From positions 1-36,536 of the IMG/VR virus record IMGVR_UViG_3300025030_000941: a stretch of 36,536 bases of DNA. One strand, written 5' to 3'. Below the pieces are notes generated by a model. That model saw only the letters and a list, made by a program, of their open reading frames with translations, did not search any database and was not told the DNA's origin. Both the position numbers and the translations under genes were made by a program. Every line of letters starts with the position of its first letter. Position 1 is the stretch's first letter. This DNA is from a virus. Positions 17,428-31,860 of the stretch are shown here, one piece after another.

Positions 17428-17789
17428 GCAAGTCCCAAATGAAACGGATTAACCTACAGAAAGGGTTGCCTATGGATACGCCTAATCATTCAGAGGTAGC
17501 GAGGAATATTGTAGATAAATTTGGAATCGGATATATCAATGGCGAGAAAGCGAACTGTTTGGAATTGAATATTACCAATGCACTTGTCCAATCCTTCCTC
17601 GATGGAAGAAAGAGTGGGATTAATGCAAGTGTAGATGTGGCTAACGAATTAGCTAGAAAAATGAATATTTTAGGTTCTGACGCAAAGATGGTGAGGAAAA
17701 TGACTCACGCTGAGATTCAGGCCGAAAGAGTTTATCAGACTCAGGATGTAGCCCAAGCCATAAAAAATCTAATGAGGGAGGGGAAGTGA
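17424..17789 (+). CDS. Hypothetical protein, mainly helical
   Basis: A 121-residue protein (MSKSQMKRINLQKGLPMDTP) with long helices (ASVDVANELARKMNIL, HAEIQAERVYQTQDVAQAIKNLM). An internal ATG at residue 17 is possible but has no better ribosome site. The stop overlaps the GTG start of the outer-membrane protein gene (GTGA). Function unknown. Confidence 0.55.
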   Translation: MSKSQMKRINLQKGLPMDTPNHSEVARNIVDKFGIGYINGEKANCLELNITNALVQSFLDGRKSGINASVDVANELARKMNILGSDAKMVRKMTHAEIQAERVYQTQDVAQAIKNLMREGK

Positions 17790-18421
17790 AGAAACTAATT
17801 GTTTTAACCGTCTTATTTTTGACTGGAATTGTAAATTGTTATTCTGATGATCAGAGTATTTTAGTTCAGGGGGGTTGGGAACACACCGCTTCAAGTGCCT
17901 ATGAAGATTCTTGGACAAACTCAGTTCGTTATGAACACAAGCTCTACAAGAACTTGTGGATAGGCCCAGAGTACACTTACCACGGGCCTATGGAACACCA
18001 CACAGGTCAAAACGATGGAACACGTTTTGACTATGGTGATGTTTCTGGGCATTCGTTACTGCTTAATTTAATTTATTACCCTGAATGGGCAAAGGTAAAA
18101 AACATTCAAGCCTACGCAATCACCGGCGGCGGGTGGTCTTGGTGGGATTTTGATGAGTCGGATGGCGTTAAGGAATTGGGAATCATTGTCGATCTAGGAG
18201 ACGCCTTCGCTTACAAGGTTGGCGCTGGGGCCGTTTATCCAATTAATGACGATTGGAGTTTTCTTGTCGAGTGGTCGTTTTTTAAAGCGGCGATCACCAA
18301 AGACGCTTATGAGGGTGACGGTTCTTATTCCGCGATTTTAGGCGACGACAAAGCCTCTGGCCGCGTCAGAATTGGAGAGGAAGAAACAAGACTTACCTTT
18401 GGCCTTAAATACTCATGGTAA
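17786..18421 (+). CDS. Outer-membrane beta-barrel protein
   Basis: A 211-residue protein starting at GTG in a GTGA overlap, with GGAGGGG close upstream. Residues 1-20 (MKKLIVLTVLFLTGIVNCYS) form a signal peptide. The rest alternates polar and aromatic residues in strands of about ten (VRYEHKLYKNLWIGPEYTYH, LLLNLIYYPEW, AYAITGGGWSWW, FLVEWSFF) and ends LTFGLKYSW, the final aromatic recognised by the outer-membrane assembly machinery. Size fits an eight-strand barrel of the OmpW/opacity type. Phage genes of this kind can modify the host surface or block superinfection. It implies a Gram-negative host and lies directly before the glycan genes. Confidence 0.75.
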   Translation: MKKLIVLTVLFLTGIVNCYSDDQSILVQGGWEHTASSAYEDSWTNSVRYEHKLYKNLWIGPEYTYHGPMEHHTGQNDGTRFDYGDVSGHSLLLNLIYYPEWAKVKNIQAYAITGGGWSWWDFDESDGVKELGIIVDLGDAFAYKVGAGAVYPINDDWSFLVEWSFFKAAITKDAYEGDGSYSAILGDDKASGRVRIGEEETRLTFGLKYSW

Positions 18422-18507
18422 AATTCTTTAAGGATATTTGGTTTATATTTTGTCTCGGTGAAAAACAGATCAAGGAACTACATGAAAAATATATCAATAG
18501 ACGATGA
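18415..18507 (+). CDS. Possible 30-aa coupling peptide
   Basis: A short frame, MVKFFKDIWFIFCLGEKQIK then a basic tail, starts within the last codons of the barrel gene and ends inside the cupin gene. The hydrophobic-amphipathic start could lie at the membrane. No strong ribosome site is visible, so it may be chance. Confidence 0.25.
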   Translation: MVKFFKDIWFIFCLGEKQIKELHEKYINRR

Positions 18508-18883
18508 GGTTTATGCAATTTTAGCCTCAATTGACGACACTAAAGAGGGATCGGAGTGGTTCGGAAATCAGTTTGAATCCCTACAGGCTTCGCGGATGAA
18601 ATATCCCGCAGGTAAAAACTTTCGTGTTCATCATCACATATTGAACCCGCGCACAATAAAAAGAACTCAGGAATCCTTTGTGGTTGTGCGAGGAAAAATA
18701 GCAGTGGACGTTTATGACAACAAAGCTACCCTAATCGGAACCCTTGAAGCCTCGCAAGGTGACGCGGTGTTTGTTTATCGCGGTGGGCATGGGGTTCGGA
18801 TCATTGAGGATGCGGTTGTCTACGAAATTAAGGCTGGTTCTTATAGTTACGTCAGCGAAGATAAGGAATATTTGAATGATTAA
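18482..18883 (+). CDS. Cupin-fold protein of sugar-nucleotide type
   Basis: A 133-residue product from ATG 18482, with AAGGAA about six bases upstream; an in-frame GTG at 18458 lacks such a site. The cupin pattern is clear: VHHHILNPRTIKRTQESFVV, RGKIAVDVYD, SQGDAVFVYRGGHGVRIIE and VVYEIKAGSY. The clustered His and Gln/Glu suit a metal site. Cupins of this size occur in polysaccharide clusters (WbuC-like or sugar ketoisomerase relatives). It opens the glycan island. Exact reaction unknown. Confidence 0.65.
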   Translation: MKNISIDDEVYAILASIDDTKEGSEWFGNQFESLQASRMKYPAGKNFRVHHHILNPRTIKRTQESFVVVRGKIAVDVYDNKATLIGTLEASQGDAVFVYRGGHGVRIIEDAVVYEIKAGSYSYVSEDKEYLND

Positions 18884-18891
18884 GAGTGGAT

Positions 18892-19479
18892 ATGTACGAA
18901 CGTAATAACTGCATCCGTCAGTTTGAAAAGACCATAGCAAAGCATTGTGGTGCGCTTTATGGAATCGCGGTCGAGAGTTGCACCGCCGCGTTGTTCTTGT
19001 CTTGCCTATATCTCAAGGTGGGTAAGGTGACTATCCCAAAGAAAACCTACTTCAGCGTTCCAATGAGTATTATTCATGCTGGCGGGTGTGTTAGATACGA
19101 GGATCTAAGTTGGTTCGGTGCTTATCGGTTAAAACCTTATCAGATTATAGACAGCGCGATGAGATTTAAGAAGGATATGTATTGGCCCGGCCAGTTTCAA
19201 TGTCTGTCTTTTCATTACGCTAAACATATCCCAATTGGCAGGGGTGGGATGATTTTAACTGATAACAAGAAAGCCGCTAAATGGTTCAGGGTGATGCGGA
19301 ATGACGGTCGGCGGGAGATTCCGAAAGAGAAAGACAATGTAAAACTTTTAGGATGGAACTTCTATATGACCCCGGAACAAGCGGCGAGGGGTCTGTCCTT
19401 GTACTATTGGCGAATCTTCAATCAACCAGACCCGCAAGACCTTCCGATGACGCATGGAGATATCAGTTATGTTTGCTAA
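18892..19479 (+). CDS. Compact DegT/DnrJ-type aminotransferase
   Basis: A 195-residue product from ATG 18892 (GTG 18886 is also possible). It follows the DegT/DnrJ/EryC1 fold in order: YGIAVESCTAALFLSC, VTIPKKTYFSVPMSIIHAGG, QIIDSAMRF (Asp of the IEDxAQ position) and LSFHYAKHIPIGRGGMILT, where Lys113 (counted from the GTG) is in the PLP lysine position, then LGWNFYMTPEQAARGL. Full-length family members have about 370 residues; here the middle is shortened and the whole C-terminal domain is missing. Key cofactor residues look intact, so it may still be an enzyme or act with a partner. Family role: amination of keto-sugar nucleotides. Confidence 0.7.
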   Translation: MYERNNCIRQFEKTIAKHCGALYGIAVESCTAALFLSCLYLKVGKVTIPKKTYFSVPMSIIHAGGCVRYEDLSWFGAYRLKPYQIIDSAMRFKKDMYWPGQFQCLSFHYAKHIPIGRGGMILTDNKKAAKWFRVMRNDGRREIPKEKDNVKLLGWNFYMTPEQAARGLSLYYWRIFNQPDPQDLPMTHGDISYVC

Positions 19480-20125
19480 ATACTCCAGATACTACGATCT
19501 TTTTAACCAAGACAAGCCGTACAAAAAAGAGATTGAATTTGTTTATTGGTGGGCTAAAAAACCAAGAACTATTTTTGATATCGGATGTGGAACTGGTAAC
19601 TATTGGAAATATTATCCAATAAAGACAAAAATTTTCGGTGTTGATAAGTCTAGGGCGATGGTTGAATTGACCGATGGCAAGTTGTTTCCAAACTTTAAAA
19701 GAGAAATTATGTGCGCGGACATCACAAAATTTAAAATGGAATCTAAGTTTGATTGCGCCACGGCTTTGTTCGACGTGATAAATTACATTTCAAAACATGA
19801 TTGGTGGAAAAATATCCCGGTTAAAGAAGGTGGGTATTTTATATTTGATGTTTTTAATTCTGAAAAGGTGTATAATGATCGTTTTAGAACAACTATAAAA
19901 AATGTTAAAGGCATTTCAAGAAGTATTATACCTATTAACTATAATGGAAATTCAGTTGACTTGCTTATTGACGTCTATGTTGGAAAAAAAGTTTTTAGAG
20001 AGAAGCACAAAATATATATTTATAACAAAGAACAATTATCAAATTTTTGTGGGAAAGAATTTAGGATAATTGAGATTAAGGAAACTGACAAATGGCAACA
20101 GTGGTGGAAGCTACAAAAAATATAA
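19469..20125 (+). CDS. SAM-dependent class I methyltransferase
   Basis: A 218-residue product from ATG 19469, placed nine bases after GGAG; ATG 19454 is in frame but overlaps more of the previous gene. The Rossmann motif I is TIFDIGCGTGNYWKY, motif II FGVDKS, then MCADITKF and CATALFDVINYI. The N-terminus FAKYSRYYDLFNQDKPY is typical of sugar/lipid methyltransferases in polysaccharide clusters. Probably methylates a sugar or precursor made by the surrounding genes. It overlaps the next gene by 34 bases. Confidence 0.8.
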   Translation: MFAKYSRYYDLFNQDKPYKKEIEFVYWWAKKPRTIFDIGCGTGNYWKYYPIKTKIFGVDKSRAMVELTDGKLFPNFKREIMCADITKFKMESKFDCATALFDVINYISKHDWWKNIPVKEGGYFIFDVFNSEKVYNDRFRTTIKNVKGISRSIIPINYNGNSVDLLIDVYVGKKVFREKHKIYIYNKEQLSNFCGKEFRIIEIKETDKWQQWWKLQKI

Positions 20126-20553
20126 AGTTTGATAAATTTTATCATAGGGCATGGAGAGCAAAAAACCCACTAAAAGTTTTTAAGGCAAACAGAAAATTTA
20201 GAAATAAAAATAAAGTTCGTTTAAAAAAATACCATAAAAAATGGTATCAAGAACATAAGGTCGAACATGACAAAAAAAGTAGGAAATATTTAAAAAAAAA
20301 TCCCTGGATTTGTCATTATTCAAATGCTAGGCAAAGATGTTTAAATCCGAAGCAAGCGGATTTTAACTCCTACAAGGGAAAAGGCATTAAATTTAAAATG
20401 TCAGTTAATGACTTTAAATTTTTGTGGTTTAGAGATGGTGCGTCAAAAATGAAAAAACCTAGCATCGATAGAATTGATGTCAATGGGGATTATTTTATTG
20501 ATAATTGTGAATTTGTTGAAATGAGTATAAATTTAAAGCGAAGAAATAAATGA
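20092..20553 (+). CDS. HNH-like homing endonuclease candidate (paralogue 1)
   Basis: A 153-residue basic protein. Its N-terminal half is Lys/Arg/His-rich linker; the C-terminal half has NARQRCLNP, SYKGKGIKF, FLWFRDGASKM, SIDRIDVNGDYFIDNCEF and NLKRRNK. That DRIDxxGxYxxxNC order is seen in a family of phage-borne endonuclease-like proteins. A close paralogue is encoded at 28116. It sits between the methyltransferase and GT4 genes and overlaps both. The A/T-rich composition differs from flanking genes. Endonuclease activity is inferred from family resemblance. Confidence 0.65.
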   Translation: MATVVEATKNIKFDKFYHRAWRAKNPLKVFKANRKFRNKNKVRLKKYHKKWYQEHKVEHDKKSRKYLKKNPWICHYSNARQRCLNPKQADFNSYKGKGIKFKMSVNDFKFLWFRDGASKMKKPSIDRIDVNGDYFIDNCEFVEMSINLKRRNK

Positions 20554-21527
20554 AGATCGCTTTGCTTCACCGCTACCCATCAGATCGCATCAGAGAAACC
20601 AACGCCGCTTTTCCATATCTTAAAGCTAAAGGGATAGATGTTCTAACATTTAAAAAATTTGACCGACTCGGTAATTTCGGGAAATTCTGGAAAAGCATAG
20701 CATGGATTTTTTATGCCCCGTGCCTTGTTATTGGAAAAGGGTATGACGTTCTATATTTAGATGATTCATATCCATTTTACCCGGCACTCGTAAAGCTTGC
20801 TTCTCCCAGATCTCGGGTTGTTATACGGCTTGGAGACTTGCACCTCATGTACTACTACAAGGGGTGGCTATATTGGATTCTCCACTTCTTCGAAGAAATC
20901 GGTTGGTCGGTTGCCGACAAAATACTTGTCATTTCAAACGCCATGGCAGAGGTCTTAAGAAAAGAGGGCTATCCTTGCGAGGTTGTCCGTGATCCAGTTG
21001 ACCCAAAAGATTTTCCAATTAACGGTTTATCTAGCAACGGAACGGTCATGTTTCATGGCGTACTTACAAGAAATAAAAATATTGATATTCTTCTGGGAGC
21101 GGCGAGGTTTCTTCCAGAAATTGATTTTATTATTGTCGGCGACGGTCCGGATCTTAATCGGTTGCAAAAGATAGCCCCAAGAAACGTATTTTTTGATGGG
21201 TGGACGCCGTTTAAAGATATTTGGCTTAAAATCGCTTCGTGTTCAGTAGGGGTTGCTTTGAGGAGTGATAATCCTGGGAATGAGTTTGTCGTTACCTCTC
21301 CATTTCTTCAATATGGAATTATGGGCAAGCCCTGTCTTGTTACTCGACGGGGGGTCTTTGGGGATTACAAATGGCAGTTTAATGGTGTGGATGAGCTTGT
21401 CGAGAAGATAAAAATTCTTATTTCAAAGCCGGAAGAAGGTGAGAAGTTAAGAAAATTCGTTCTTGAAAACCACGACGCCGAAAAAATAGCTGGGGAGATA
21501 TGGGAAATCCTTACGCAAGCGTCATAA
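20550..21527 (+). CDS. GT4-like glycosyltransferase (GT-B fold)
   Basis: A 325-residue protein. The C-terminal nucleotide-sugar domain is clear: GTVMFHGVLTRNKNIDILL, FIIVGDGPDLNRLQ, FFDGWTPFKDIW, then NEFVVTSPFLQYGIMGKPCLV with the Glu/acidic region and GKP typical of family GT4. The N-terminal acceptor domain has DVLYLDDSYPFYPALV. It would transfer a sugar from a nucleotide donor on the cytoplasmic side. ATGA overlap with the previous gene and 28-base overlap with the next. Confidence 0.85.
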   Translation: MKIALLHRYPSDRIRETNAAFPYLKAKGIDVLTFKKFDRLGNFGKFWKSIAWIFYAPCLVIGKGYDVLYLDDSYPFYPALVKLASPRSRVVIRLGDLHLMYYYKGWLYWILHFFEEIGWSVADKILVISNAMAEVLRKEGYPCEVVRDPVDPKDFPINGLSSNGTVMFHGVLTRNKNIDILLGAARFLPEIDFIIVGDGPDLNRLQKIAPRNVFFDGWTPFKDIWLKIASCSVGVALRSDNPGNEFVVTSPFLQYGIMGKPCLVTRRGVFGDYKWQFNGVDELVEKIKILISKPEEGEKLRKFVLENHDAEKIAGEIWEILTQAS

Positions 21528-22285
21528 TTTGCACCATGGGCACCCCGGCCCTAGTACTCAAATGTCTAGAAGAACAGACCTTCAAGGACTTTGAGATCAT
21601 TATAGCCTCTGAGAAGGGCATTGTGAATGCCATGAATAACGCACTAGCTAAGGCCACAGGCACGATATTTGTCAGGGTAGACGATGACGTGGATATCCCA
21701 TCTCATTGGTTGCAGGAGCTTATAAAGCCATTTTCTGAGGCTATCGTAGCCGGAGTGACAGGCCCAACCTATGTTCCTATGGCTCGACGTAAGAACAGGG
21801 ATAGCATTCGGATCTGGGAGAAGCCGAACTGGTTTTTAAGATGGATGACTGGTTGCGATAAATTTAGACCAGCTGGGATCTACAAATGTGGGATGGTTTC
21901 TTATGATTCAAACTACGCAGAGAGGTTCGATAACCATGCGCCTGAGTTTCAGCCAGATCATCTTGAAGGTACAAATTGGGCGATGAGGACTGATCTTATC
22001 CGCGCTGTCGGGGGGTTTGACAAGGCTTTTGACGGGGTTTGTGAATGGTTCGATACGGATGTTGAGTTTAAGATCAAAAAACTTGGCTACGTCCTTCGAT
22101 ATTGCCCGAAGGCATACCTCTGGCACTGGCTTGAATTTAGCGACAATTACAATGAGCGATTTGATGGTGTCGGTCGGATAAAGAATTGGATACGGTTTCA
22201 CCATAGGCATACGAAGTTTCATTGGAAGATGATAGTTTATCTCATGGTTTGGGGAGGGTATTTCCTATGCAAAAAGTTTCGGTAA
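21500..22285 (+). CDS. GT2-like glycosyltransferase (GT-A fold)
   Basis: A 261-residue protein: ASVIICTMGTPALVLKCLEE at the start, VRVDDDVDIPSHWLQEL as the DxD metal/nucleotide-sugar site, and EGTNWAMRTDLIRAVGGFDK followed by WFDTDVEFKIKKLGY, the ED-type catalytic region of GT2 enzymes. The last ~15 residues are hydrophobic (MIVYLMVWGGYFLC) and may touch the membrane. GGGGAG is just before the ATG. It is the first of two adjacent GT2 genes. Confidence 0.85.
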   Translation: MGNPYASVIICTMGTPALVLKCLEEQTFKDFEIIIASEKGIVNAMNNALAKATGTIFVRVDDDVDIPSHWLQELIKPFSEAIVAGVTGPTYVPMARRKNRDSIRIWEKPNWFLRWMTGCDKFRPAGIYKCGMVSYDSNYAERFDNHAPEFQPDHLEGTNWAMRTDLIRAVGGFDKAFDGVCEWFDTDVEFKIKKLGYVLRYCPKAYLWHWLEFSDNYNERFDGVGRIKNWIRFHHRHTKFHWKMIVYLMVWGGYFLCKKFR

Positions 22286-23091
22286 TCATCCCCACAATGA
22301 AAGGCCGCGAGACCATGCTTCAAAAACTTCTCTCAACCATTCCGGACGAATACGAAAAGATCGTGGTGGATGATGAGGATTTGCTTTTGGCCGCCAAAAG
22401 AAACAAGGGGGCCAAACTTGCCAAAGGAGAATACCTTTTTTTCGTTGATGATGATAATTACCTTACGCCCGGAGCGATAGAAGCCGCGCTTGAATTGGCT
22501 GAAAAAGAAGGTGTTGGGGTTGTAGGTTTTATGGCGTGTTATGATGACAAGCAAGACCTCGTTGCGGATGGTGGCTCTAAGCGAAATTATTTAACGGGCT
22601 TCACCACAGGGATAAACACTAATGCCTTTTGGCCTAGATTAAATAAAACACCATACGAAGTTGATGAAGTAGCCAATGCTTTTATGATCCACGCCGAGCT
22701 GTTCTTTGAACTTCAGGGCTTTGATGATGTCAACTTCCCGATGGACATGAATGAATCGGATATATGCTTTAGAATTAAGAAAATGGGTTATACTATAATG
22801 ATGAATCCGTTAGCGATGGGTTACCACAAATCACAGACGTATTCTTGTTTTCCTAACTTTCGAAAGGAGATGTATGCGTATTTTCATGGAAACGGTCGCG
22901 TTGGTTTTGCGCGAAAGCATTATCACGGTTTATGTTATTGGGGCCACATTAGCATTTTCCTTCCTCTATTTCTTTGTTTTTATACAGTATCGCTTCTTTG
23001 GAGAAAAAACTTCAAAGTAATTTTCCCATTCCTGAAAGGGGTGTTCGATGGACTACGAGGTCGTAGAACGAATAAATATCAACCGCGCTAA
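22267..23091 (+). CDS. GT2-like glycosyltransferase with C-terminal membrane segment
   Basis: A 274-residue product from ATG 22267 (MQKVSVIIPTMKGRETML), preceded by GGGAGGG; an in-frame ATG at 22222 lies well inside the preceding gene. DxD site: YLFFVDDDNYLTPGAI. Acceptor region: LQGFDDVNFPMDMNESDICF. Residues ~225-260 are strongly hydrophobic (ISIFLPLFLCFYTVSLLW), anchoring the enzyme at the cytoplasmic membrane. Likely adds a sugar to a lipid-linked glycan. Confidence 0.85.
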   Translation: MQKVSVIIPTMKGRETMLQKLLSTIPDEYEKIVVDDEDLLLAAKRNKGAKLAKGEYLFFVDDDNYLTPGAIEAALELAEKEGVGVVGFMACYDDKQDLVADGGSKRNYLTGFTTGINTNAFWPRLNKTPYEVDEVANAFMIHAELFFELQGFDDVNFPMDMNESDICFRIKKMGYTIMMNPLAMGYHKSQTYSCFPNFRKEMYAYFHGNGRVGFARKHYHGLCYWGHISIFLPLFLCFYTVSLLWRKNFKVIFPFLKGVFDGLRGRRTNKYQPR

Positions 23092-23842
23092 CTGCGTCAA
23101 AGTTGGTTCGTTTTTGTATGACAAAGAAGTAGACGGACTTTACCATGAAAGCCATTGGTGGTTCCCAGTTCAAATTGGAATCACGCATGGACTTACCAAG
23201 TGTCAAGTTACTCCAATGTTTTTGAAATTGCCGTTTTTGATGAAAGGGTGGGTTCAGGAATATATACTTCTCAGAGAAATTGAACTTTTGAAACTTACCC
23301 TAACAGGAAAGATTTTAATGCACGGCTCTTGTTACGCCAATACTCTGGTAGTCGGCTTCCCAAACTCCGGCAAGACCTACCAGACGTACAAGGCCGTCTC
23401 GGAAGGGGCGAAACTTATCTCAGAGGAATACACCATAATCTACGATGGTAAAGCCCACCCCTACGAGCGCGTTATGAGGACGTGCTTCTCGGCTCGGACG
23501 ATGAAAGATTGTAACATCGAGACTTCCTTAAGGGAAAAACTCTGGCTCGCGGCCGCCACACTTCGGGCGACTCTTTTCCCTTTCATGTACGAAGCGGTGA
23601 TTTGGAAGAATATCCATGTAAGCGGCGAGGCGTCAGAGATAAAGAAGATCGTCTATGGTTCCACAGGCCGCGAGGTTAAGGACTGGAAAGAGTTTGCGAT
23701 ACTTTGTGAGAATGAGTTCCCTTTTATGTCGAGCGAATTTTTACAGGCTTACGCCATCGCCTCTGGTCTTGATTTATTAAAGATTCAGGAAACCCAAAGA
23801 AATTTAATCAAGGAGTTTGTTGAGAGTGTTTATCAAAATTAA
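23048..23842 (+). CDS. HprK-like P-loop kinase of glycan cluster
   Basis: A 264-residue protein. Walker A is VVGFPNSGKTYQTYKA (Gly103 to Thr110), preceded by KILMHGSC and followed by SEGAKLISEEYTIIYDGKAH. This order (small-residue loop before the P-loop, then GAxLxSxE) resembles HPr-kinase-like proteins, a few of which occur in polysaccharide and peptide-modification clusters. The N-terminal ~85 residues have no clear homology. It may phosphorylate a sugar, lipid or protein partner. ATG 23048 follows AAAGGGG. Confidence 0.6.
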   Translation: MDYEVVERININRANCVKVGSFLYDKEVDGLYHESHWWFPVQIGITHGLTKCQVTPMFLKLPFLMKGWVQEYILLREIELLKLTLTGKILMHGSCYANTLVVGFPNSGKTYQTYKAVSEGAKLISEEYTIIYDGKAHPYERVMRTCFSARTMKDCNIETSLREKLWLAAATLRATLFPFMYEAVIWKNIHVSGEASEIKKIVYGSTGREVKDWKEFAILCENEFPFMSSEFLQAYAIASGLDLLKIQETQRNLIKEFVESVYQN

Positions 23843-24026
23843 AACGAGGGATGGAAGATTCAGTCATGGTGCTAGGGTAAAATCTCCGTCTGGAAGATTG
23901 GGAACATTTATTGACGATTATATTCCTGACAGTTGCCTATATGATAAATACCATAGAGTACAAATTAAATGGGATGATGGAGAAATCGAAATCAGGTACC
24001 CGCAAACATTGGAGGTTGTTAAATGA
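23820..24026 (+). CDS. Small SH3/KOW-like protein (copy 1)
   Basis: A product of about 68 residues, with TTG starts at 23817 and 23820 and a GTG at 23826; AGGAG (23811-23815) best suits 23820. The sequence RDGRFSHGARVKSPSGRLGT then VQIKWDDGEIEIRYPQTLEV is a small beta barrel of KOW/SH3-like appearance. The gene at 27905 codes for a protein of similar size and layout. Function unknown. Confidence 0.5.
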   Translation: MRVFIKIKTRDGRFSHGARVKSPSGRLGTFIDDYIPDSCLYDKYHRVQIKWDDGEIEIRYPQTLEVVK

Positions 24027-24709
24027 AAATTTTAATCACAGGAAATAAAGGCTTCATCGGAAGCGGTCTTGTCGGCGACGGAATCGACATCAAAGATGGT
24101 TTTGATATCCTTACCTACAAAGCCAAAAATAAATACGAAGTTGTGATACACACCGCCGCAAAAACAAGTGTGGTGGAATCAGAAAAACAACCTGCATTTT
24201 ATTTTGAAACGAATATCACTGGCACTATGAATATGGTGAAACAACACCCGGAATCACATTTTATATATTTATCTACCGCAGCCATTTATGGAGAAGGATT
24301 AGACCATACGGTAAACTCGATTCCACAGCCATCTTCAACTTACGCTTACACAAAATATTTAGGAGAAGGAATTATAAAAAAATTTGCGAAGTCTTGGGTG
24401 ATCCTGAGACTAACAAACGTGATCGGTGACGGTGAGCGCGGCGAGCCGAACGTCTATCAGATTTTTCAGAAGGCGGATGTGCTTCCGATTTATGGGGATG
24501 GCCTACAAACAAGGGATTTTATCCACGCTGATAAAGTCCGGGAAGTCATAATGAACAGTCTCAACAAGCGCGGCGTGTTCAACGTTGGGTCGGGGGTGTC
24601 AAAAACAATTCTTCAGGTGGCGAAGGAATTTAACAAGCCGATGGAGTTCCTACCAGCACGTTCGGGTGAAATCAGAAACTTCGGAATTAAGGACGCAATC
24701 TCATGTTGA
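24023..24709 (+). CDS. NAD-dependent sugar epimerase/dehydratase (compact)
   Basis: A 228-residue extended-SDR protein. ILITGNKGFIGSG is the Rossmann GxxGxxG motif; VVIHTAAKTSVVESEKQP, YLSTAAIYGEG and STYAYTKYLGE supply the active-site Ser/Thr and Tyr107-x3-Lys111; LRLTNVIGDGERGEPN and TRDFIHADKV complete the family pattern. Length is below the usual ~310 residues, mainly from shortening after the cofactor domain. Probably acts on a nucleotide sugar. It ends in a seven-base overlap with the next GT. Confidence 0.8.
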   Translation: MKILITGNKGFIGSGLVGDGIDIKDGFDILTYKAKNKYEVVIHTAAKTSVVESEKQPAFYFETNITGTMNMVKQHPESHFIYLSTAAIYGEGLDHTVNSIPQPSSTYAYTKYLGEGIIKKFAKSWVILRLTNVIGDGERGEPNVYQIFQKADVLPIYGDGLQTRDFIHADKVREVIMNSLNKRGVFNVGSGVSKTILQVAKEFNKPMEFLPARSGEIRNFGIKDAISC

Positions 24710-25293
24710 GCATAATTCTCCCTAATCACTACGAAGCCACAATCCATGAGTTCATTGCCGAGGTCGAGGGGCGTTTCCCTTGCTGTGAAATTATCATTTC
24801 TAACGACTCTGAAAGCAAAGGCAAGGGATGGGCTATCCGGGAAGCGTTGAGGCATTGCAAGGGAGATCAAATTGCCATGCTCGATGGAGATGGTGAAATC
24901 CCGGCACGGATGCTTTTGAGACTGCTTCCATTCCTCGAAGATTTTGATGTGGTGGTTGGTTCAAAAAGATTGGCAAAAACCTCCCCTTTAAGAAGAAAGA
25001 TAATGACCCATGTAACAAGAATTTGGTTTCGGTTTCTTTTCGGGGTTCAGGTTGATACGCAAACAGGGATTAAAATTTTTAGACGCTTGGCACTTGATGC
25101 ATTAGATTGGTCTTGGGAAAGTAACGGATTTATTTATGATTGCGAGGTCATTGCTAGGTTACAAAAAAAAGGTTTTAAGATAGTAGAGGTACCGATTGAA
25201 TGTGAGATTAGGCGACAGCTTGCGTTCAAAACAATTTTCAGAATCGCCGGAGAGAGTGTTTGGCTATGGTTTCGATTACTCAAAAAGAATTAG
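24703..25293 (+). CDS. DPM1/GtrB-like polyprenyl-phosphate GT2 transferase
   Basis: A 196-residue protein: LSIILPNHYEATIHEFI, SKGKGWAIREALRHCKGDQI, MLDGDGEIPARML, VVVGSKRLAKTSPLRRKIMT and DTQTGIKIFRRLALD. These match dolichol/polyprenyl-phosphate sugar synthases, which load a sugar onto a membrane lipid carrier. It lacks the two C-terminal membrane helices of GtrB, so it resembles the soluble DPM1 type. Together with the GT-C-like gene at 29923 it could supply lipid-linked sugar for periplasmic transfer. Confidence 0.8.
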   Translation: MLSIILPNHYEATIHEFIAEVEGRFPCCEIIISNDSESKGKGWAIREALRHCKGDQIAMLDGDGEIPARMLLRLLPFLEDFDVVVGSKRLAKTSPLRRKIMTHVTRIWFRFLFGVQVDTQTGIKIFRRLALDALDWSWESNGFIYDCEVIARLQKKGFKIVEVPIECEIRRQLAFKTIFRIAGESVWLWFRLLKKN

Positions 25294-25706
25294 CTTATAT
25301 CGCTGGATTTATTGATGGCGAGGGTTGTTTGACTTTAGACCTTGGATTTTCACGAAAAACTCTTGTTTTTTCTGCTCGATTGATCGTGGTGAACACAGAC
25401 AAAAGAATCATTAAGTGGTTGGCTAGAAAAATAGGCGGTGGTTCATGTGATATGAAAAGAAACCCCGGAAAATATCATAAACCAGCATATCGTTTTTTCT
25501 TGTGCGCTCAATCGGATTTACTGAAATTTTTGGTCGAAATTTATCCCTATTTAAGAATAAAAAAGAGACAAGCCAGAGTTTTGATAGGTATTTTGAAATA
25601 TAGAGCGAAATTTTTTGGATTTAGGCCAAGAAATACTATTGGGAAAATGGAACTTTCGGCACTGAAAAAAATAAGGGAGTTAAATAAAAAGGGATGTCGA
25701 CCTTGA
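25266..25706 (+). CDS. LAGLIDADG homing endonuclease, single motif
   Basis: A 146-residue product from ATG 25266 (MVSITQKELAYIAGFIDGEG); TTG 25260 is in frame. The AYIAGFIDGEGCLTL segment is a LAGLIDADG helix with the catalytic acidic residue, followed by a beta saddle (ARLIVVNTDKRIIKWLARKI). One motif means it should act as a homodimer on a near-palindromic target. It lies between two glycosyltransferase genes, overlapping both, with no intron-like sequence. Confidence 0.85.
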   Translation: MVSITQKELAYIAGFIDGEGCLTLDLGFSRKTLVFSARLIVVNTDKRIIKWLARKIGGGSCDMKRNPGKYHKPAYRFFLCAQSDLLKFLVEIYPYLRIKKRQARVLIGILKYRAKFFGFRPRNTIGKMELSALKKIRELNKKGCRP

Positions 25707-26374
25707 AAGTTTCTATCATCATTCCTTGTAAAACGCTAGACGATTACGCCCAGCGGTGTTTAAAGCATTGCAAAGCACTCGAAGAAGATAAGGAAATAAT
25801 CCTTGTTCCTGATTCGGTGTGTCCGGGATATCCCGCGGCTAAGAGGAATTGGGCGATGCAACAAGCTAAAGGTGATATATTTGCCTTTATAGATTCGGAT
25901 GCTTTTCCTGATCATGATTGGCTCAAAAACGCTCTTTACTGGCTTCAGTGCTATTCGGCAGTCTGCGGGCCCGGGGTCTTGCCGCCGGATGCACCATTCA
26001 AGGAACGAGTCGCCGATCAGGTTCACAAGTGGGTTTTCTGTCCTTATCGGGTAACTCCGAAGAAACCTCGGATCGTGCCGTGGCACCCGACCTTCAACCT
26101 CATTATCAAGAAAGAGGTCGCCACGCAGTTTGACAGCTATTTGACAGGCGAAGATGACCGCTTCTGTGAAAAAATAAAAGGGGGGATTTTCTACCATCCC
26201 GATATTTTGGTCTACCACAACCGACGCGGGGCGTTCAGGCCGTTGTGGCGACAATTTGCGACGTATGCACGTCACAAGGGAGCTTTTAAGGCACTCGCCC
26301 TGATCGCTTTTGTGACAACAATATGGACTTATGCCATTAACTTTGCGAAAGGATTTATTAGGAGAAAGCCATGA
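25694..26374 (+). CDS. GT2-like glycosyltransferase with C-terminal membrane segment
   Basis: A 226-residue protein. KVSIIIPCKTLDDYAQRCLK begins the GT-A domain; FAFIDSDAFPDHDWLKNAL is the DxD site; SYLTGEDDRFCEKI is the acceptor/catalytic region. A hydrophobic segment near residues 200-218 (ALALIAFVTTIWTYAINF) suggests membrane attachment. ATG 25694 has almost no space after its purine stretch; TTG 25703 is an alternative start nine bases on, with AAGGGA well placed. Confidence 0.8.
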   Translation: MSTLKVSIIIPCKTLDDYAQRCLKHCKALEEDKEIILVPDSVCPGYPAAKRNWAMQQAKGDIFAFIDSDAFPDHDWLKNALYWLQCYSAVCGPGVLPPDAPFKERVADQVHKWVFCPYRVTPKKPRIVPWHPTFNLIIKKEVATQFDSYLTGEDDRFCEKIKGGIFYHPDILVYHNRRGAFRPLWRQFATYARHKGAFKALALIAFVTTIWTYAINFAKGFIRRKP

Positions 26375-26934
26375 GCAAGACTTTATATCATTGCGAGTGG
26401 TGTAAAAAAATGATCTATGATTGGCCAAGCAATAAAAGGTTTAAGCATATTTTTTGTGGTTTAAAATGTCGTGGTAAATACTTCTGGACTAAAAAGAATC
26501 CAGCAAAGAAGTCTAGCGTAAAAAGGATTTTGAGAAATCAAAAATTAGGAAATAAAAACCCCCAATTTGGAAAACCCTCTTGGAACGCAGGACTCAAAGG
26601 GGTGCAAATTGCGTGGAATAAAGGAAAAAAATTCCCGCAATTTAGTGGTGCTAATAGCTCTAATTGGAAAGGTGGTGTCACGCCCGAAATAAGGAGAATC
26701 AGAAACAGCGACGAATATGCTTTGTGGCGTAAGGCTGTTTTTGTCAGAGACAACTATACCTGTATTTGGTGTGGTTCAAATGGAAATATAAACGCAGACC
26801 ATATCAAACCTTTTTCAGACTATCCAGAGCTTCGTTTCGCTATTGACAACGGAAGAACGCTATGTGTCTCTTGTCATAAAACAACACCCACTTATGGCGC
26901 AAAATGGAGATGGAACAAATGCCGAAAGCGCTGA
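26371..26934 (+). CDS. HNH homing endonuclease with zinc ribbon and NUMOD-like repeats
   Basis: A 187-residue protein. N-terminal CEWC and FCGLKC pairs (Cys8, 11, 29, 33) form a zinc ribbon. Residues ~55-105 hold NUMOD3-like segments (GNKNPQFGK, AWNKGKKFP, NWKGG), known DNA-target-binding elements. The HNH core is YTCIWCGSNGNINADHIKPF then NGRTLCVSCHK. A complete, probably active free-standing homing enzyme, translationally coupled (ATGA) to the preceding GT and overlapping the next epimerase gene. Confidence 0.9.
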   Translation: MSKTLYHCEWCKKMIYDWPSNKRFKHIFCGLKCRGKYFWTKKNPAKKSSVKRILRNQKLGNKNPQFGKPSWNAGLKGVQIAWNKGKKFPQFSGANSSNWKGGVTPEIRRIRNSDEYALWRKAVFVRDNYTCIWCGSNGNINADHIKPFSDYPELRFAIDNGRTLCVSCHKTTPTYGAKWRWNKCRKR

Positions 26935-27908
26935 TCACAGGTTCTATGGGTCTCTGCGGGACAGAAGCGACAAAATATTATTTGAACGAAGCGTGGGAGG
27001 TTGTTGGAATTGACAACGATATGCGAAAGCACATGTTTGGGCCAGAAGCATCGGTATTGAAAAATCGAATTGACCATAGGAATTATACTCATCATGGGGT
27101 TGACATTTCAAAGGCGGAGCCAATTATCACTAAAGAAAAGCCAGATATAATTCTTCATTTCGCCGCAGCCCCATCCCACGATTGGTCTGCTACAAACCCA
27201 CTTTTGGACTTCGGAATAAATGCCTACTCAACCCTCATGCTTTTGGAGATGGTTAGAAAGCACTGTCCCCAATCCGTGTTCGTCTATACCTCAACAAACA
27301 AGGTTTACGGAGATACCCCGAACTTTCTGCCATTGGTGGAAAAAGAAACACGGTACGAGTGCGAAGCCCTACCAAACGGGATAGACGAGATGATGAGTGT
27401 AGATCACTCCATGCACTCACCTTTTGGGGTTTCAAAGCTCGCCGGAGACTTGTACGTACAGGAATACGCCCGATACTTTGGCCTCAAGACAGGCGTTTTC
27501 CGTTGCGGGTGCATCACCGGCGCCGCTCATGCCGGGACAGAACTTCACGGTTTCCTTGCGTACATGGCACGGTGCAAGAAAACAGGAACGCCCTACAAAG
27601 TCTTTGGGTATCAAGGAAAACAAGTCCGTGACCAAATACATGCCTCGGACCTTGTAAGAGCGATTAACTGTTTCGTCCGCAATCCAACGCCAGGAGAAGT
27701 CTATAACATGGGCGGCGGCACACACGCGAACGTCTCTGTTTTGGAGGCTCTGAACATGTTCAAGATAAAAGACTGGATGTATATGGATGAGGCAAGACGA
27801 GGCGACCATCAATGGTACATCAGCGATACAAGGAAGTTTGAATCAGACTACCCAAAATGGAAAAGAGAATATAACCTGTGGGCTATTATGGAGGATTTAA
27901 TGAAATGA
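26919..27908 (+). CDS. CDP-paratose 2-epimerase (tyvelose epimerase)-like enzyme
   Basis: A 329-residue product from ATG 26919 with GGAG nine bases upstream; 26904 is in frame but overlaps more of the endonuclease gene. Diagnostic stretches: ALITGSMGLCGTEATKYYL, VVGIDNDMRKHMFGPEA, ILHFAAAPSHDWSATNP, STNKVYGDTPN, GIDEMMSVDHSMHS, CGCITGAAHAGTELHGFL and GYQGKQVRDQIHASD. These are characteristic of the RfbE/tyvelose-epimerase-like branch of extended SDR enzymes. The usual catalytic Tyr of YxxxK is Phe169 (FGVSK) here. Likely epimerises a nucleotide-linked sugar; the exact substrate is uncertain. Confidence 0.8.
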   Translation: MPKALITGSMGLCGTEATKYYLNEAWEVVGIDNDMRKHMFGPEASVLKNRIDHRNYTHHGVDISKAEPIITKEKPDIILHFAAAPSHDWSATNPLLDFGINAYSTLMLLEMVRKHCPQSVFVYTSTNKVYGDTPNFLPLVEKETRYECEALPNGIDEMMSVDHSMHSPFGVSKLAGDLYVQEYARYFGLKTGVFRCGCITGAAHAGTELHGFLAYMARCKKTGTPYKVFGYQGKQVRDQIHASDLVRAINCFVRNPTPGEVYNMGGGTHANVSVLEALNMFKIKDWMYMDEARRGDHQWYISDTRKFESDYPKWKREYNLWAIMEDLMK

Positions 27909-28111
27909 ATTATGGAGATATTGTTACTCTTAAAGGAAAGTTTTATAACGGGCAAACGGGGGTTATCGTCGGTATAAATAGACCGAGAGTTGAGTGGAAA
28001 AATCCATCATATAAAGTAAAAATAGACGATGGAAATATTGTTGATGATGTTTCTTATTCTGAAATGGAAAAAGTTATCATTTGTGAGAAATGCAAGTCTA
28101 CAAGGATTTGA
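27905..28111 (+). CDS. Small SH3/KOW-like protein (copy 2)
   Basis: A 68-residue product from ATG 27905 (ATGA overlap, GGAGG upstream). MNYGDIVTLKGKFYNGQTGV then KVKIDDGNIVDDVSYSEMEK resembles a KOW-type small barrel, like the product of 23820. It ends with a CEKC pair. It lies directly before the second HNH-like paralogue. Confidence 0.5.
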   Translation: MNYGDIVTLKGKFYNGQTGVIVGINRPRVEWKNPSYKVKIDDGNIVDDVSYSEMEKVIICEKCKSTRI

Positions 28112-28115
28112 TGAG

Positions 28116-28487
28116 ATGAAAACAGCAGAAGAAAATAGAGCCAAGAGAGCAATTTATCGTAAAAACACCATAAGAGAAAGGTATCTCTACAATAAAAAAA
28201 GACGAAAAGATAAACCGTGGATAAATTCATTTGATAGTGCTAGGCAAAGATGTAATGACCCAAATCACGTGGCATATCATTCTTACGGAGGCTTTGGGAT
28301 TAAATTCTTATTGGCAATGGAAGAAATAAAATATCTTTGGGTGCGGGACAATGCGGAGGGTATGAACTTTCCAAGCCTAGATCGAATTGATAATGACGGG
28401 CATTACGAATATTCAAATCTCAGATTTATAGAGAGAAGCGAAAATTCTTCAAGGCCAAAAAGGAAAAAAAATGCGGGTTCTATTTAA
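28116..28487 (+). CDS. HNH-like homing endonuclease candidate (paralogue 2)
   Basis: A 123-residue product from ATG 28116 (MKTAEENRAKRAIYRKNTIR). Shared elements with the gene at 20092 in the same order: SARQRCNDP, SYGGFGIKF, YLWVRDNAEGM, SLDRIDNDGHYEYSN and a final basic tail. In-frame ATG 28029 lies inside the previous gene and is rejected. Endonuclease activity is inferred. It overlaps the radical SAM gene by 17 bases. Confidence 0.65.
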   Translation: MKTAEENRAKRAIYRKNTIRERYLYNKKRRKDKPWINSFDSARQRCNDPNHVAYHSYGGFGIKFLLAMEEIKYLWVRDNAEGMNFPSLDRIDNDGHYEYSNLRFIERSENSSRPKRKKNAGSI

Positions 28488-29484
28488 AGACAGTCCGTTT
28501 CATTCTCAGAGGCAGTACCAAAAAAAAGTTTGGATATATCCAGCGCATTTAGCGATGTTCGCGACGCATCTACGCGACCAAGGCAATGAGGTTGTTTGGC
28601 TTGGAGAGGATGACGGAAAATTTGACCGCATTATAGAATCGGATCGCCAGATTGATGTTGACTATGAAAAACTCCCCATCCCTGATCGAGTGTTCACAAA
28701 TTCGATGAACCCAAAATATTTAAAATACGGCAATTACAAGAAATCTAGGGGTACTCATCTTCTATCATCGAACCTTTGCTGGTATGGACGCTGTTCGTTT
28801 TGTGTCGATACCGAAAGGCTGCAAGCGGGTGAACACAGAGGTGTTCGTTCTGTAGACCATGTACTTTCTGAGATAGATGATTGCATCAGAATTGGACATA
28901 ACGAAATATTTGACGATGCCGGGACGCTTCCTATTGGAGCATGGTTACAAGAATTTTGTGAAAAGATGATACGATCCAAAAGAAATAAAAAGATTATGTT
29001 GGGCGCCAACATGAAACCAATTTCCGAAAAGGTCGTGCCATTCAAGCTGATGAAAGAAGCTGGGTTCAGGTTCATGCTTGTCGGGGTTGAATCAGCTAAT
29101 CAAGAGACAATCAACCGGATTCAAAAGGGGCAAGAGTCTAACAAAGTCATTGAGAATATAAAAGCCATGAACGATGCCGGGCTTGAGGTACATTTGACTT
29201 CGATGTTCGGTTATCCGTGGGAAAGCCATGAGGACGCCATGCGGACTGTGAATGAAATCCATTACTTGTTGCGGAAAGGCTACGTTAAGACAGCCCAAGC
29301 GTCGGTCTATATGCCCCCTCGCACAGCCCCAGATCCAAATGCCGATGGGCAAAAATACATTAAGATGATTTACGACATCTACAAAGACCCACGCTATTGG
29401 CTAAGAAAGGTTCTTGATATTCGTAGAATCGAGGACATCACTTACTTGCTAAAGAGGATCGGTCATGTCAAACACGCAGAATAA
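28471..29484 (+). CDS. Radical SAM enzyme
   Basis: A 337-residue protein. SSNLCWYGRCSFCVDTERLQ provides the iron-sulfur ligands Cys103, 108 and 111 with C-x4-C-x2-C spacing rather than the common C-x3-C-x2-C. Later SAM-domain elements are visible: EIFDDAGTLP, KIMLGANMKP, FMLVGVESANQETINRIQKG and VHLTSMFGYPWESHEDAM, as in B12-type radical SAM enzymes. The N-terminal ~95 residues are too short for a complete B12 domain. In glycan clusters such enzymes can carry out deoxygenation, methylation or epimerisation. Substrate unknown. Confidence 0.8.
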   Translation: MRVLFKDSPFHSQRQYQKKVWIYPAHLAMFATHLRDQGNEVVWLGEDDGKFDRIIESDRQIDVDYEKLPIPDRVFTNSMNPKYLKYGNYKKSRGTHLLSSNLCWYGRCSFCVDTERLQAGEHRGVRSVDHVLSEIDDCIRIGHNEIFDDAGTLPIGAWLQEFCEKMIRSKRNKKIMLGANMKPISEKVVPFKLMKEAGFRFMLVGVESANQETINRIQKGQESNKVIENIKAMNDAGLEVHLTSMFGYPWESHEDAMRTVNEIHYLLRKGYVKTAQASVYMPPRTAPDPNADGQKYIKMIYDIYKDPRYWLRKVLDIRRIEDITYLLKRIGHVKHAE

Positions 29485-29866
29485 AGTACCGGGTTATTCA
29501 AAAAAAATCCCGTGCAACGAAACGAGATACTTTTTTGAGAAGGTGAAGGGAAAACAATTTCATCCAAAAGAATCAGCTTGTGATGAATTTACCGTCCGAC
29601 TACAGATAAGAAAACGCCATTCTTTAGATTGGAACGCTGTTGCTTACCAGCTTTGTATAAGAGATTGGGTTAATCAATTTCATACTATCGGCATGACTTC
29701 TGGAAATAGCACAAAGCTTGTTTCAACTTTCAGAGTGCGTCTTGGGGACCATTCTAAATGTATAATAGCGTCAAGGAAGTATCAGCTTGCTCTAAAAGAA
29801 TATAATAAAACCAAGAAGATGCCAGTATATGATTGGCCTATAAAATGTTTGGTGGAGAAAAAATGA
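29465..29866 (+). CDS. Hypothetical protein in glycan island
   Basis: A 133-residue basic protein (MSNTQNKVPGYSKKIPCNET) overlapping the radical SAM gene by 20 bases. It has a helical middle and several aromatic/Arg clusters (WNAVAYQLCIRDWVNQFH). No signal peptide or membrane span. Function unknown. Confidence 0.5.
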   Translation: MSNTQNKVPGYSKKIPCNETRYFFEKVKGKQFHPKESACDEFTVRLQIRKRHSLDWNAVAYQLCIRDWVNQFHTIGMTSGNSTKLVSTFRVRLGDHSKCIIASRKYQLALKEYNKTKKMPVYDWPIKCLVEKK

Positions 29867-29922
29867 ACCTGATAATTATAATTATTTTGTTATTAATTCT
29901 TCAGAGACTTGGAGGCTGTTAA
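29863..29922 (+). CDS. 19-aa hydrophobic peptide
   Basis: MNLIIIIILLLILQRLGGC starts in an ATGA overlap and stops directly before the ATG of the GT-C-like gene. Its 3' end (TTGGAGG) is the ribosome site for that gene, so it may serve mainly in coupling. It is nevertheless a plausible membrane micropeptide. The C-terminal LGGC resembles a lipobox, but no sequence follows the Cys. Confidence 0.4.
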   Translation: MNLIIIIILLLILQRLGGC

Positions 29923-31293
29923 ATGTTTGAACAAATAGCATGGATTATAATTGTAAATCTTGCGCTTTACATTAAGACTTTACGCTTTAAGTTTGTCTCC
30001 GACGACTTCTCCTGTTGGAAAAACCCCCCAGTTGCCAAGAACGCCTGGCATAAACTTTGGCTTGAAATCACAGGCCAGAAGAAAATATATGCCAAGAGCA
30101 TTCAGTTTGTCCGCGCTAATGGCAAGCTCTTTATGGCAATCGTGAGGAAAGAAGAGATGGAGCATCTTTTAACGCTTCTTATTCATATCGGTATCTGCGT
30201 AACGATTTATTTCGCTTTTGGGGCTTCGTGGATTTCTTTCGTAGCGGCCATGCTTTATTCCACGAACCCGGTCAATAACCAAGGCACGATCTGGCCGTCC
30301 GGCAGGGGGTATGCTTTTCCGATTCTTTTCCTTGTTCTTTCGATGGTGGTTCCGATTCTCTCGCCACTTTTTCTATATGCTGGGACTTGGTACACCGCAG
30401 GGTTCCTCTCACCGCTATCACTTATCGGATCAAACGTTTGGTACATCTTGGCCTCAATGCCCCTGATATGGTACTTACACTCAAGGAAATTCACGACCGC
30501 CGTCAGGAATAAGCAAAAATCGGAAACGTTCGCCGAGGATAAAATAGTTCACCCAAAAAAACTAATCTTGGGAGTTAAATCTTTCGGATTTTACCTTTTT
30601 TTGTGTATCATTCCTTTTCGGATAACCTTCTACCACAATTTTCTCCAATCATCGGCTGGAAGCATGAAGCGTAAAAATTATACCCTCTGCCGGTATTTTT
30701 GGATTGGGTTTATAGCTATAGTCACATGGGTTTATTTCGCTTTCACTATCCAATGGAATTTGCTCTTGTGGGCGTGTCTTGCTTTCTTTATTACTATTGT
30801 TCCATTTTGTAACATCGTCCGGGCGAATCAGGAAATAGCTGAACGCTTCGCCGCGCTCCCAAATGTATTCTTGATGTACGCTCTAGCTCAGTTTATTGCA
30901 CCTTATAGCATTTTATGCACAGCGTTCGTAGTCTTTTACGCAACAAGGACATTTTATACCCTAACGCTTTACAAAGACGAGTACAACATTACCGAGTGCG
31001 CTGTCATCGAAGATCCTCACGCTTGGTGGGCTTGGCATTGCCGCGCCATGAAGCGATGGGACACTCAAAGCTACAAAGAGGCCCTTATCCTTTGGGTGAT
31101 GGCAAAACTTATCTCTCCGAATGAATTCAAGGTTTTAATTAACATCGCAACGTGCCTGAGACTTTTAAAAAATGATAAAGAGGCCGACGAATATTTGAAG
31201 CTCGCAGAGCAGAACATTGTTCCTGGTCAAGAGAAAGAGGCGGCAGAATTTATAGATAACCATAGACGTGGAAAATTACCGATATTGCTTTAA
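29923..31293 (+). CDS. Polytopic GT-C-like glycosyltransferase with C-terminal TPR
   Basis: A 456-residue membrane protein. The first loop has LRFKFVSDDFSCWKNPP, placing Asp27-Asp28 where GT-C enzymes of the TMTC/PMT type carry their catalytic acidic pair. HLLTLLIHIGICVTIY, AAMLYSTNPVNNQGTIWPSG and later hydrophobic blocks (130-180, 220-330) indicate about eight to ten membrane spans. The C-terminal ~85 residues look like TPR helices (SYKEALILWVMAKLISPNEF, CLRLLKNDKEADEYLKLAEQ), also found in TMTC proteins. It probably uses a polyprenyl-phosphate sugar on the periplasmic side. It is the last gene of the island. Confidence 0.7.
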   Translation: MFEQIAWIIIVNLALYIKTLRFKFVSDDFSCWKNPPVAKNAWHKLWLEITGQKKIYAKSIQFVRANGKLFMAIVRKEEMEHLLTLLIHIGICVTIYFAFGASWISFVAAMLYSTNPVNNQGTIWPSGRGYAFPILFLVLSMVVPILSPLFLYAGTWYTAGFLSPLSLIGSNVWYILASMPLIWYLHSRKFTTAVRNKQKSETFAEDKIVHPKKLILGVKSFGFYLFLCIIPFRITFYHNFLQSSAGSMKRKNYTLCRYFWIGFIAIVTWVYFAFTIQWNLLLWACLAFFITIVPFCNIVRANQEIAERFAALPNVFLMYALAQFIAPYSILCTAFVVFYATRTFYTLTLYKDEYNITECAVIEDPHAWWAWHCRAMKRWDTQSYKEALILWVMAKLISPNEFKVLINIATCLRLLKNDKEADEYLKLAEQNIVPGQEKEAAEFIDNHRRGKLPILL

Positions 31294-31527: not shown

Positions 31528-31551
31528 GTTATGATTTTAGAATGAGGATTT

Positions 31552-31860
31552 ATGGCTGGTAAAAAAGGAAGAAGCGGACGCAGACCCATGAGTGAAGAAT
31601 GTCTACGCCTTCGTGTACTTCAAAAAGGGTGGGAGCTTGCTGACGAAGATTTAAATAATCCTTCCCTTGATATGGAAATCAAGAGAGATATTTATCTACG
31701 ATTAATCTCCAAAGACATACCGACAGAATTTTCAGGCAATGTTACAGCTCAAGTAACCCAAATGCCCGCGATCCAGAAAGAATATCCTGGTGAGGCCAAT
31801 AATACCAACCGCATAGCGGAGTATTTCATTGGCTCGCCTCCTCCTCCCACAGATTCTTGA
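31552..31860 (+). CDS. Small terminase subunit-like protein
   Basis: A 102-residue protein. The basic start MAGKKGRSGRRPMSEE and the following helices (CLRLRVLQKGWELADEDLNN, KRDIYLRLISKDIP) fit DNA-binding small terminase subunits of short-tailed phages, and it lies immediately upstream of, and overlaps by 32 bases, the large subunit gene. Assignment rests mainly on position and size. Confidence 0.65.
   Translation: MAGKKGRSGRRPMSEECLRLRVLQKGWELADEDLNNPSLDMEIKRDIYLRLISKDIPTEFSGNVTAQVTQMPAIQKEYPGEANNTNRIAEYFIGSPPPPTDS

Follow-up and report, generated by a model that had tools for sequence, protein, structure and literature searches.

A glycan gene island conserved in an uncultured podovirus lineage and proposed to remodel the host envelope

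The virus record IMGVR_UViG_3300025030_000941, analyzed here over its entire linear length of 36,536 bp (the window), carries an island of thirteen glycan-type genes, all intact open reading frames (ORFs), at positions 18458-31293 (12.8 kb, 35% of the record). The island encodes a cupin, a compact DegT aminotransferase, a methyltransferase, a GT4-type and four GT2-type glycosyltransferases (GTs), an HprK-like protein, two SDR epimerase/dehydratases, a radical SAM enzyme (rSAM), and a membrane transferase, termed GTC herein. We propose, with a probability of about one half, that this island, resident in an uncultured lineage of podoviruses, remodels the host envelope during infection. The data directly show which genes it contains, that their catalytic motifs are conserved, that purifying selection acts on them, and that both synteny and the module itself are retained across the lineage. 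The initial annotation of this DNA, which reported at least twelve glycan-type genes near 18415-31293 and about a third of the window given over to them, was borne out on both counts.

Conservation was assessed across related contigs. A portal scan recovered 42 contigs. Of these, 14 extend 3.5 kb or more upstream of the terminase large subunit gene (TerL), and all 14 carried the GTC gene, nearly always directly upstream of TerL; this count excludes the window, as well as contigs found later via GTC or HprK, which avoids circularity. The initial annotation had suggested looking for the same gene order in other phages, and it was found directly upstream of TerL in G003, G005-G008, G010, G011, and L081. 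A long version of the island, in the same order, occurred in the near-complete G005, G006, G008, G010, and G011, of which G010 and G011 are without the short SDR and G010 is also without the cupin. Most of the island is inverted in G015 and placed downstream of the virion genes, without rSAM and the GT2 designated GT2c, and of these families G013 carried only rSAM, GTC, and GT2c. In deeper relatives, rSAM, GTC, and usually GT2c stayed beside TerL, and the other genes gave way to an SDR, a methyltransferase, an amine-oxidase-like gene, or different GT2s. As predicted from sequence, no island genes are kept as widely as rSAM, GTC, and GT2c, which form a core around which the rest vary; this core was present even in contigs with portal proteins up to 42% different. 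Variable outer genes around a constant rSAM-GTC-GT2c set are as expected for glycan-type diversification. Island orthologues with invariant motifs occurred in dozens of contigs, which argues that the island is more than chance.

Ratios of nonsynonymous to synonymous substitution (dN/dS) between the window and G003 were 0.03-0.15 for those island genes in which synonymous sites were unsaturated (five island genes were saturated), and 0.02-0.04 for terminase and portal. Pairwise distances of ten island genes, with 7-11 taxa each, were compared with those of the portal; r was 0.72-0.93 for the methyltransferase, GT4, GT2a, GT2b, HprK-like, GT2c, SDR, and GTC genes, and low for rSAM (r = 0.53) and GT2d (r = 0.32), which suggests exchange of the latter two. 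Two explanations that the initial annotation had named as fatal to its own reading were ruled out. An assembly chimera with host DNA is contradicted by independent relatives that carry the module, three of which are closed by direct terminal repeats (G008 and G011, 127 bp each; G015, 99 bp), and by a similar contig (L081) assembled in a separate study. Gene decay is contradicted by the conserved catalytic motifs and by dN/dS.

Of the three core genes, GT2c and GTC point to the membrane. The rSAM (28471-29484, plus strand, as are all features given here; Pfam 4.9e-13) had its CX4CX2C cluster motif in 14/14 aligned members. GT2c (24703-25293) is polyprenyl-phosphate-sugar synthase-like: a profile search of PDB gave dolichol-P-mannose synthase as the best match (9e-7), followed by ArnC (1e-5) and sll0501 (2e-5), and the top seven PDB sequences were all polyprenyl-phosphate-type glycosyltransferases. 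We take sll0501 to be GtrB; GT2c is without the C-terminal membrane segments of GtrB, as judged by hydropathy. GTC (29923-31293) is a multi-pass protein with at least six hydrophobic segments. In its alignment, SDD is invariant in the loop that follows the first transmembrane segment, and ER is invariant ahead of a late segment; the two deepest rows alone have the full ERxxY (ERYAY and ERYTY), and the window has ERFAA. The C-terminal end matched TPR structures with a probability of 1.00 over 63-113 aligned columns. TMTC enzymes, which belong to a protein O-mannosylation pathway, are described as having DD in their first loop, an ER motif, and C-terminal TPR (PMC7801869), and by these features GTC appears to resemble TMTC-type GT-C transferases. 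GTC had no significant Pfam match and no DUF1736 domain match, and a PDB sequence search with its alignment returned nothing significant. Because GTC, like the HprK-like protein and the rSAM of the window, had no sequence match among 50,697 phage records, it is possibly the first TMTC-like transferase recognized in phages.

An rSAM homologue 57% identical to that of the window was observed in G016, a 48-kb contig without a portal homologue and with virion-type genes called by eye. The G016 cluster holds three rSAMs in total, GT2s, methyltransferases, and a polysaccharide deacetylase, together with a GTC-like protein that is 25% identical, and several 47-54 kb contigs resemble it. Islands that combine rSAM with GTs are thus predicted to extend to one or more further viral groups.

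In the envelope-remodeling model, the cupin, compact DegT, methyltransferase, epimerases, kinase-like protein, and rSAM would modify host-supplied sugars, and the GT4 and GT2 enzymes would assemble a short glycan on the cytoplasmic face of the inner membrane. Polyprenyl phosphate would be charged with sugar by GT2c, the lipid-linked sugar would be turned over by a host flippase, and the TMTC-like GTC would then move the sugar, in the periplasm, onto an envelope acceptor, which may be lipopolysaccharide (LPS), a lipid-linked glycan, or an envelope protein. The altered surface could bring about superinfection exclusion by blocking adsorption of competing phages, or could keep progeny from rebinding dying cells and debris. 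The substrates, polyprenyl donor, acceptor, timing, and benefit of the module are what we infer here. Membrane-oriented enzymes, together with initiation, flipping, and polymerization steps that were not recognized, favor modification of an existing host envelope glycan, and a change to the host envelope is favored over one to the virion because GT-C enzymes act in the periplasm. A bolder and distinctly tentative extension is that a virulent podovirus lineage has its own TMTC-like, polyprenyl-phosphate-sugar-dependent periplasmic glycosylation machine, in which a near-invariant core of rSAM, dolichol-phosphate-mannose-synthase-like enzyme, and GT-C/TPR protein would be combined with surrounding sugar genes that are swapped, constituting a viral glycan-typing system in a ~40 kb genome.

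Several observations weigh against envelope remodeling. Purifying selection fits host-envelope and virion targets alike. Structure searches with GTC gave no significant match to GT-C folds (PglB and STT3, TM 0.35-0.38, E ~0.5-0.7), and for this reason the TMTC-like label rests on motifs and architecture. The epimerase at 26904-27908 is without its catalytic Tyr and the DegT is half-size, so their chemistry may differ from that supposed. The sole match in a cellular genome comes from a phage contig that was placed in an archaeal metagenome-assembled genome (MAG). Finally, no initiating sugar-phosphate transferase, flippase, or polymerase, and no ligase, nucleotidyltransferase, or 4,6-dehydratase, was recognized in the module. 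No gtrA-type flippase was found in the island (no Pfam match), in which GTC is the sole multi-pass ORF by hydropathy. The earlier suggestion that the set could make and export a sugar was not borne out in full: with precursor, initiation, flipping, and polymerization genes unrecognized, the module must build on host precursors, with the host supplying these steps.

Among the alternatives, the most durable, although we consider it unlikely, is that virion proteins are glycosylated in the cytoplasm, which would mask them or tune adsorption, as reported for the capsids and tails of mycobacteriophages. Several of the GT2 and GT4 enzymes are without a clear transmembrane segment by hydropathy, the island adjoins the packaging block, and virion glycosylation is documented in work cited in PMC12619734. 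However, a multi-pass GT-C-like enzyme with a polyprenyl-phosphate-sugar synthase-like partner points to the membrane and periplasm and not to the site of virion assembly, and the number and variety of genes exceed the two GTs of mycobacteriophage Maravista, the capsid of which is presumed to be glycosylated.

It is rather improbable that the GT2c and GTC core O-glycosylates host envelope proteins instead of LPS, with the other genes building an extension. TMTC enzymes do sit in a protein O-mannosylation pathway (PMC7801869), the best PDB match of GT2c was dolichol-P-mannose synthase, and TPR domains often bind peptides; yet prokaryotic TMTC-like proteins are uncharacterized and have no known acceptor, and GtrII-type GT-C enzymes act on O-antigen. 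We give still less credence to a product that is a diffusible glycolipid or sugar metabolite, directed against competitors or manipulating the host, and not a surface coat. Such a pathway would suit a radical SAM enzyme, an aminotransferase, and a methyltransferase, and clusters for sugar and amino-acid metabolites have been proposed in jumbo cyanophages (PMC7824862), but five cytoplasmic-type glycosyltransferases plus a GT-C-like enzyme better fit an oligosaccharide or polymer, and no export or self-resistance gene was recognized. Glycosylation of phage DNA as a means of evading host nucleases was considered and rejected: phage glycosyltransferases can modify DNA (according to references in PMC12619734), but membrane enzymes make no sense for DNA and no modified-base gene such as dCMP hydroxymethylase was noticed in the window, a record from which part of the genome is absent. 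As a separate matter, anti-phage defense was rejected as a role, with no PADLOC match for seven proteins.

Most gene types given in the initial annotation were recovered by Pfam; the cupin was weak, the HprK-like assignment came from fold (E 8e-4), and the GT-C fold was weakly matched. The WbuC-like cupin (18458-18883) matched NCBIfam cupin_WbuC at 5e-7, below cut-off, and Pfam weakly (0.029), and its HHHILNPRTIKRTQE-type motif was conserved across 6 aligned members. The compact DegT/PerA-type sugar aminotransferase (18886-19479; Pfam 2.2e-21) has 197 amino acids (aa) versus ~373. It aligned with perosamine synthase as two blocks over 195 profile positions (3e-12), without the middle and C-terminal parts of the ~370-residue fold, and conserved the Lys that binds pyridoxal phosphate in HYAKHIP. 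A longer, diverged DegT (318-340 aa) replaces the compact form in G005, G006, and L081. The compact form was common among viruses, with 346 viral loci matched, some on contigs >150 kb.

Next in order are the SAM-dependent methyltransferase (19454-20125; Pfam Methyltransf_25, 2.2e-9), the GT4-type enzyme (20550-21527; Pfam Glyco_trans_1_4, 1.4e-6), and GT2a (21500-22285; Pfam 2.8e-10), which has a conserved DDD motif. GT2b (22222-23091; Pfam 7e-12) and GT2d (25694-26374; Pfam 1.5e-11) each have a single C-terminal hydrophobic segment by hydropathy; Pfam E-values of the four GT2s span 7e-12 to 3e-10. The short SDR (24023-24709, 228 aa) is a GalE-like epimerase/dehydratase (Pfam Epimerase 1e-26; PDB GalE-type 2e-18). 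The second SDR (26904-27908; Pfam 1e-35) is a homologue of CDP-tyvelose 2-epimerase (RfbE), matching PDB 9rl0 at 4e-45 over 306 residues and 1orr at 4e-41, and in 11/11 members the catalytic Tyr of YxxxK is Phe (FxxxK; FGVSK).

The HprK/PEPCK-fold P-loop kinase-like protein (23048-23842) had no significant Pfam match, and a PDB sequence search with its alignment gave nothing significant. Its AlphaFold model (pLDDT 88) matched the PDB folds of PEPCK (E 8e-4) and HprK/P (E 8e-3). The P-loop GKT was invariant in 9 members; SEE stands where HprK has the catalytic acidic DD after the P-loop, and SDE in G015. Across phage records, virus contigs, and a scan of 84,980 genomes, this family was seen solely in contigs bearing the module.

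The glycan genes of the initial annotation stood, whereas the unbroken overlapping chain in which it placed them did not, homing-type endonuclease ORFs having been overlooked. The chain is broken up by endonuclease-type ORFs at 20092, 25260, 26371, and 28029, which are predicted to be variable insertions. The HNH-like ORF at 20092-20553 (called by eye, no Pfam match) was absent from most relatives, with a 57% relative in L081; the LAGLIDADG-like ORF at 25260-25706 (Pfam 0.012, weak) had no match in the relatives compared; an HNH endonuclease lies at 26371-26934 (Pfam HNH 9.6e-7); and the HNH-like ORF at 28029-28487 (called by eye, no Pfam match) was identical in G001 and mostly different in G002. 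Further small ORFs lie between the glycan genes. That at 23817-24026 had no significant match, and that at 27878-28111, which moves with the adjoining HNH-like ORF, was 95-96% identical in G001 and G002, where flanking enzyme genes were 66-93% identical. The ORF at 29465-29866 had no Pfam match; related ORFs occupy the same place in G001, G002, and L012.

Identity between G002 and the window was 99.9% from 29008 onwards and 68-76% before, with a sharp break at 28977-29008, within the rSAM gene, and endonuclease-like ORFs flank the diverged part. G001 was 96% identical from the end of TerL through the portal, 90% across rSAM, and 75% across GTC; against window positions 31529-33009 it has a diverged terminase, ~49% identical in amino acids over the alignable part and mostly unalignable as DNA. 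Homing-driven gene conversion associated with the variable endonuclease-like insertions may move alleles.

When 84,980 genomes were scanned with the HprK-like alignment, a single match emerged: the related phage contig L081 (JAHFDG010000034.1), which is 40.8 kb long, carries nearly the same gene set, and lies in MAG nzgw24 (Ca. Methanoperedens). This placement is likely a binning error, or else an unexpected host link. We do not regard this archaeon as the host, since the window appears to encode an outer-membrane barrel-like protein and a lytic transglycosylase domain of the RlpA type. A search with GTC of G016 across 148 genomes from the same phylum as the MAG found only the L081 phage contig and one weak match. 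No bacterial O-antigen or capsule locus of the same order emerged from the single HprK-like scan of the 84,980 genomes.

Directly upstream of the island, an ORF at 17786-18421 encodes an outer-membrane beta-barrel-like protein (Pfam OMP_b-brl E 0.001, below cut-off) with hydrophobic N-terminal residues 1-19 by hydropathy. A 40% identical counterpart lies in the same place in G003, and the protein possibly belongs to the envelope theme. The conserved downstream neighbor of the island is TerL (31829-33184; PHROG 3.9e-42). PHROG-type profile matches identified the window as a podovirus, with a T7/HTVC010P-type head-tail adaptor, terminase, tail, and internal virion proteins. Its portal is ~31% identical to those of the closest cultured phages, Pelagibacter podoviruses, so there is no close cultured member of the lineage in that collection, and no description of the lineage was found in the open-license literature. 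Positions 1 and 36536 both fall inside the virion structural block and closed relatives are ~40 kb, so the genome is incomplete; portal-to-tail spacing in relatives is ~4-7 kb, and a piece of this size, with the major capsid gene, is presumably absent from the record. As the initial annotation had stated, no lysogeny gene was seen among the window proteins scanned, with some small ORFs unscanned and part of the genome absent from the record. G+C along the window had no sharp step. The tail protein gene at 1227-4208 encodes a laminin-G/ConA-like lectin domain at residues 163-328 (Pfam 4e-18), and the length of this protein varies by clade (~760, 990, and 1190 aa).

Phage glycan genes are usually treated as sporadic accessories. 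That a third of a small podovirus record is given to them, with order kept under purifying selection, means that the module must pay off in most infections, and makes the island a small system in which phage control of host surfaces can be tested. Temperate phages carry Gtr serotype-conversion modules, made up of gtrA, gtrB, and a gtr type gene. The island likewise appears to combine a polyprenyl-phosphate-sugar synthase-like enzyme with a multi-pass, GT-C-like membrane transferase, but it has no recognized gtrA-like flippase or lysogeny genes and has eleven further glycan genes. GTC shares with TMTC O-mannosyltransferases the first-loop DD and C-terminal TPR (PMC7801869), and it has the ER of their motif and a membrane part that may be GT-C-like, but it has no DUF1736 match and its sequence is too distant for Pfam or PDB sequence search.

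Glycan clusters of jumbo cyanophages include epimerases, cupins, and numerous GTs, and the capsular and surface polysaccharide clusters of jumbo phages, which have epimerase/dehydratases, cupins, sugar kinases, and several GTs, were proposed to hinder competing phages (PMC7824862). Like these, the island has GT genes adjacent to epimerase/dehydratase genes in a phage genome. However, those clusters are from jumbo genomes and are sporadic and polymorphic between relatives (PMC7824862), whereas a ~40 kb podovirus keeps this set lineage-wide, with TMTC-like, HprK-like, and radical SAM proteins. Flavobacterium phage immuto (MW353176) has the same compact DegT with GTs, a methyltransferase, and an epimerase, and Synechococcus phage S-SCSM2R has it with GTs and a radical SAM enzyme; the window form is 40-43% identical to theirs, but both are large phages with a different gene order. 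Pelagimyophages, also an uncultured aquatic lineage, have a GT-rich region with several LPS-type GTs and sugar genes (PMC7029224). Unlike the window lineage, in which order is conserved, they are myophages with GTs that are mostly in the hypervariable region or scattered (PMC7029224). Nothing in the phage records and literature searched matched this exact combination of genes, the fraction of a ~40-kb podovirus that it takes up, or its conservation throughout the lineage. The earlier view that no such phage module had been described thus holds for the exact set and not for its kind (PMC7824862, PMC7029224, immuto, and S-SCSM2R): phage glycan clusters as such were already known, and what is new is this combination of genes with its TMTC-like core, its occurrence in a small genome, and its conservation across the lineage.

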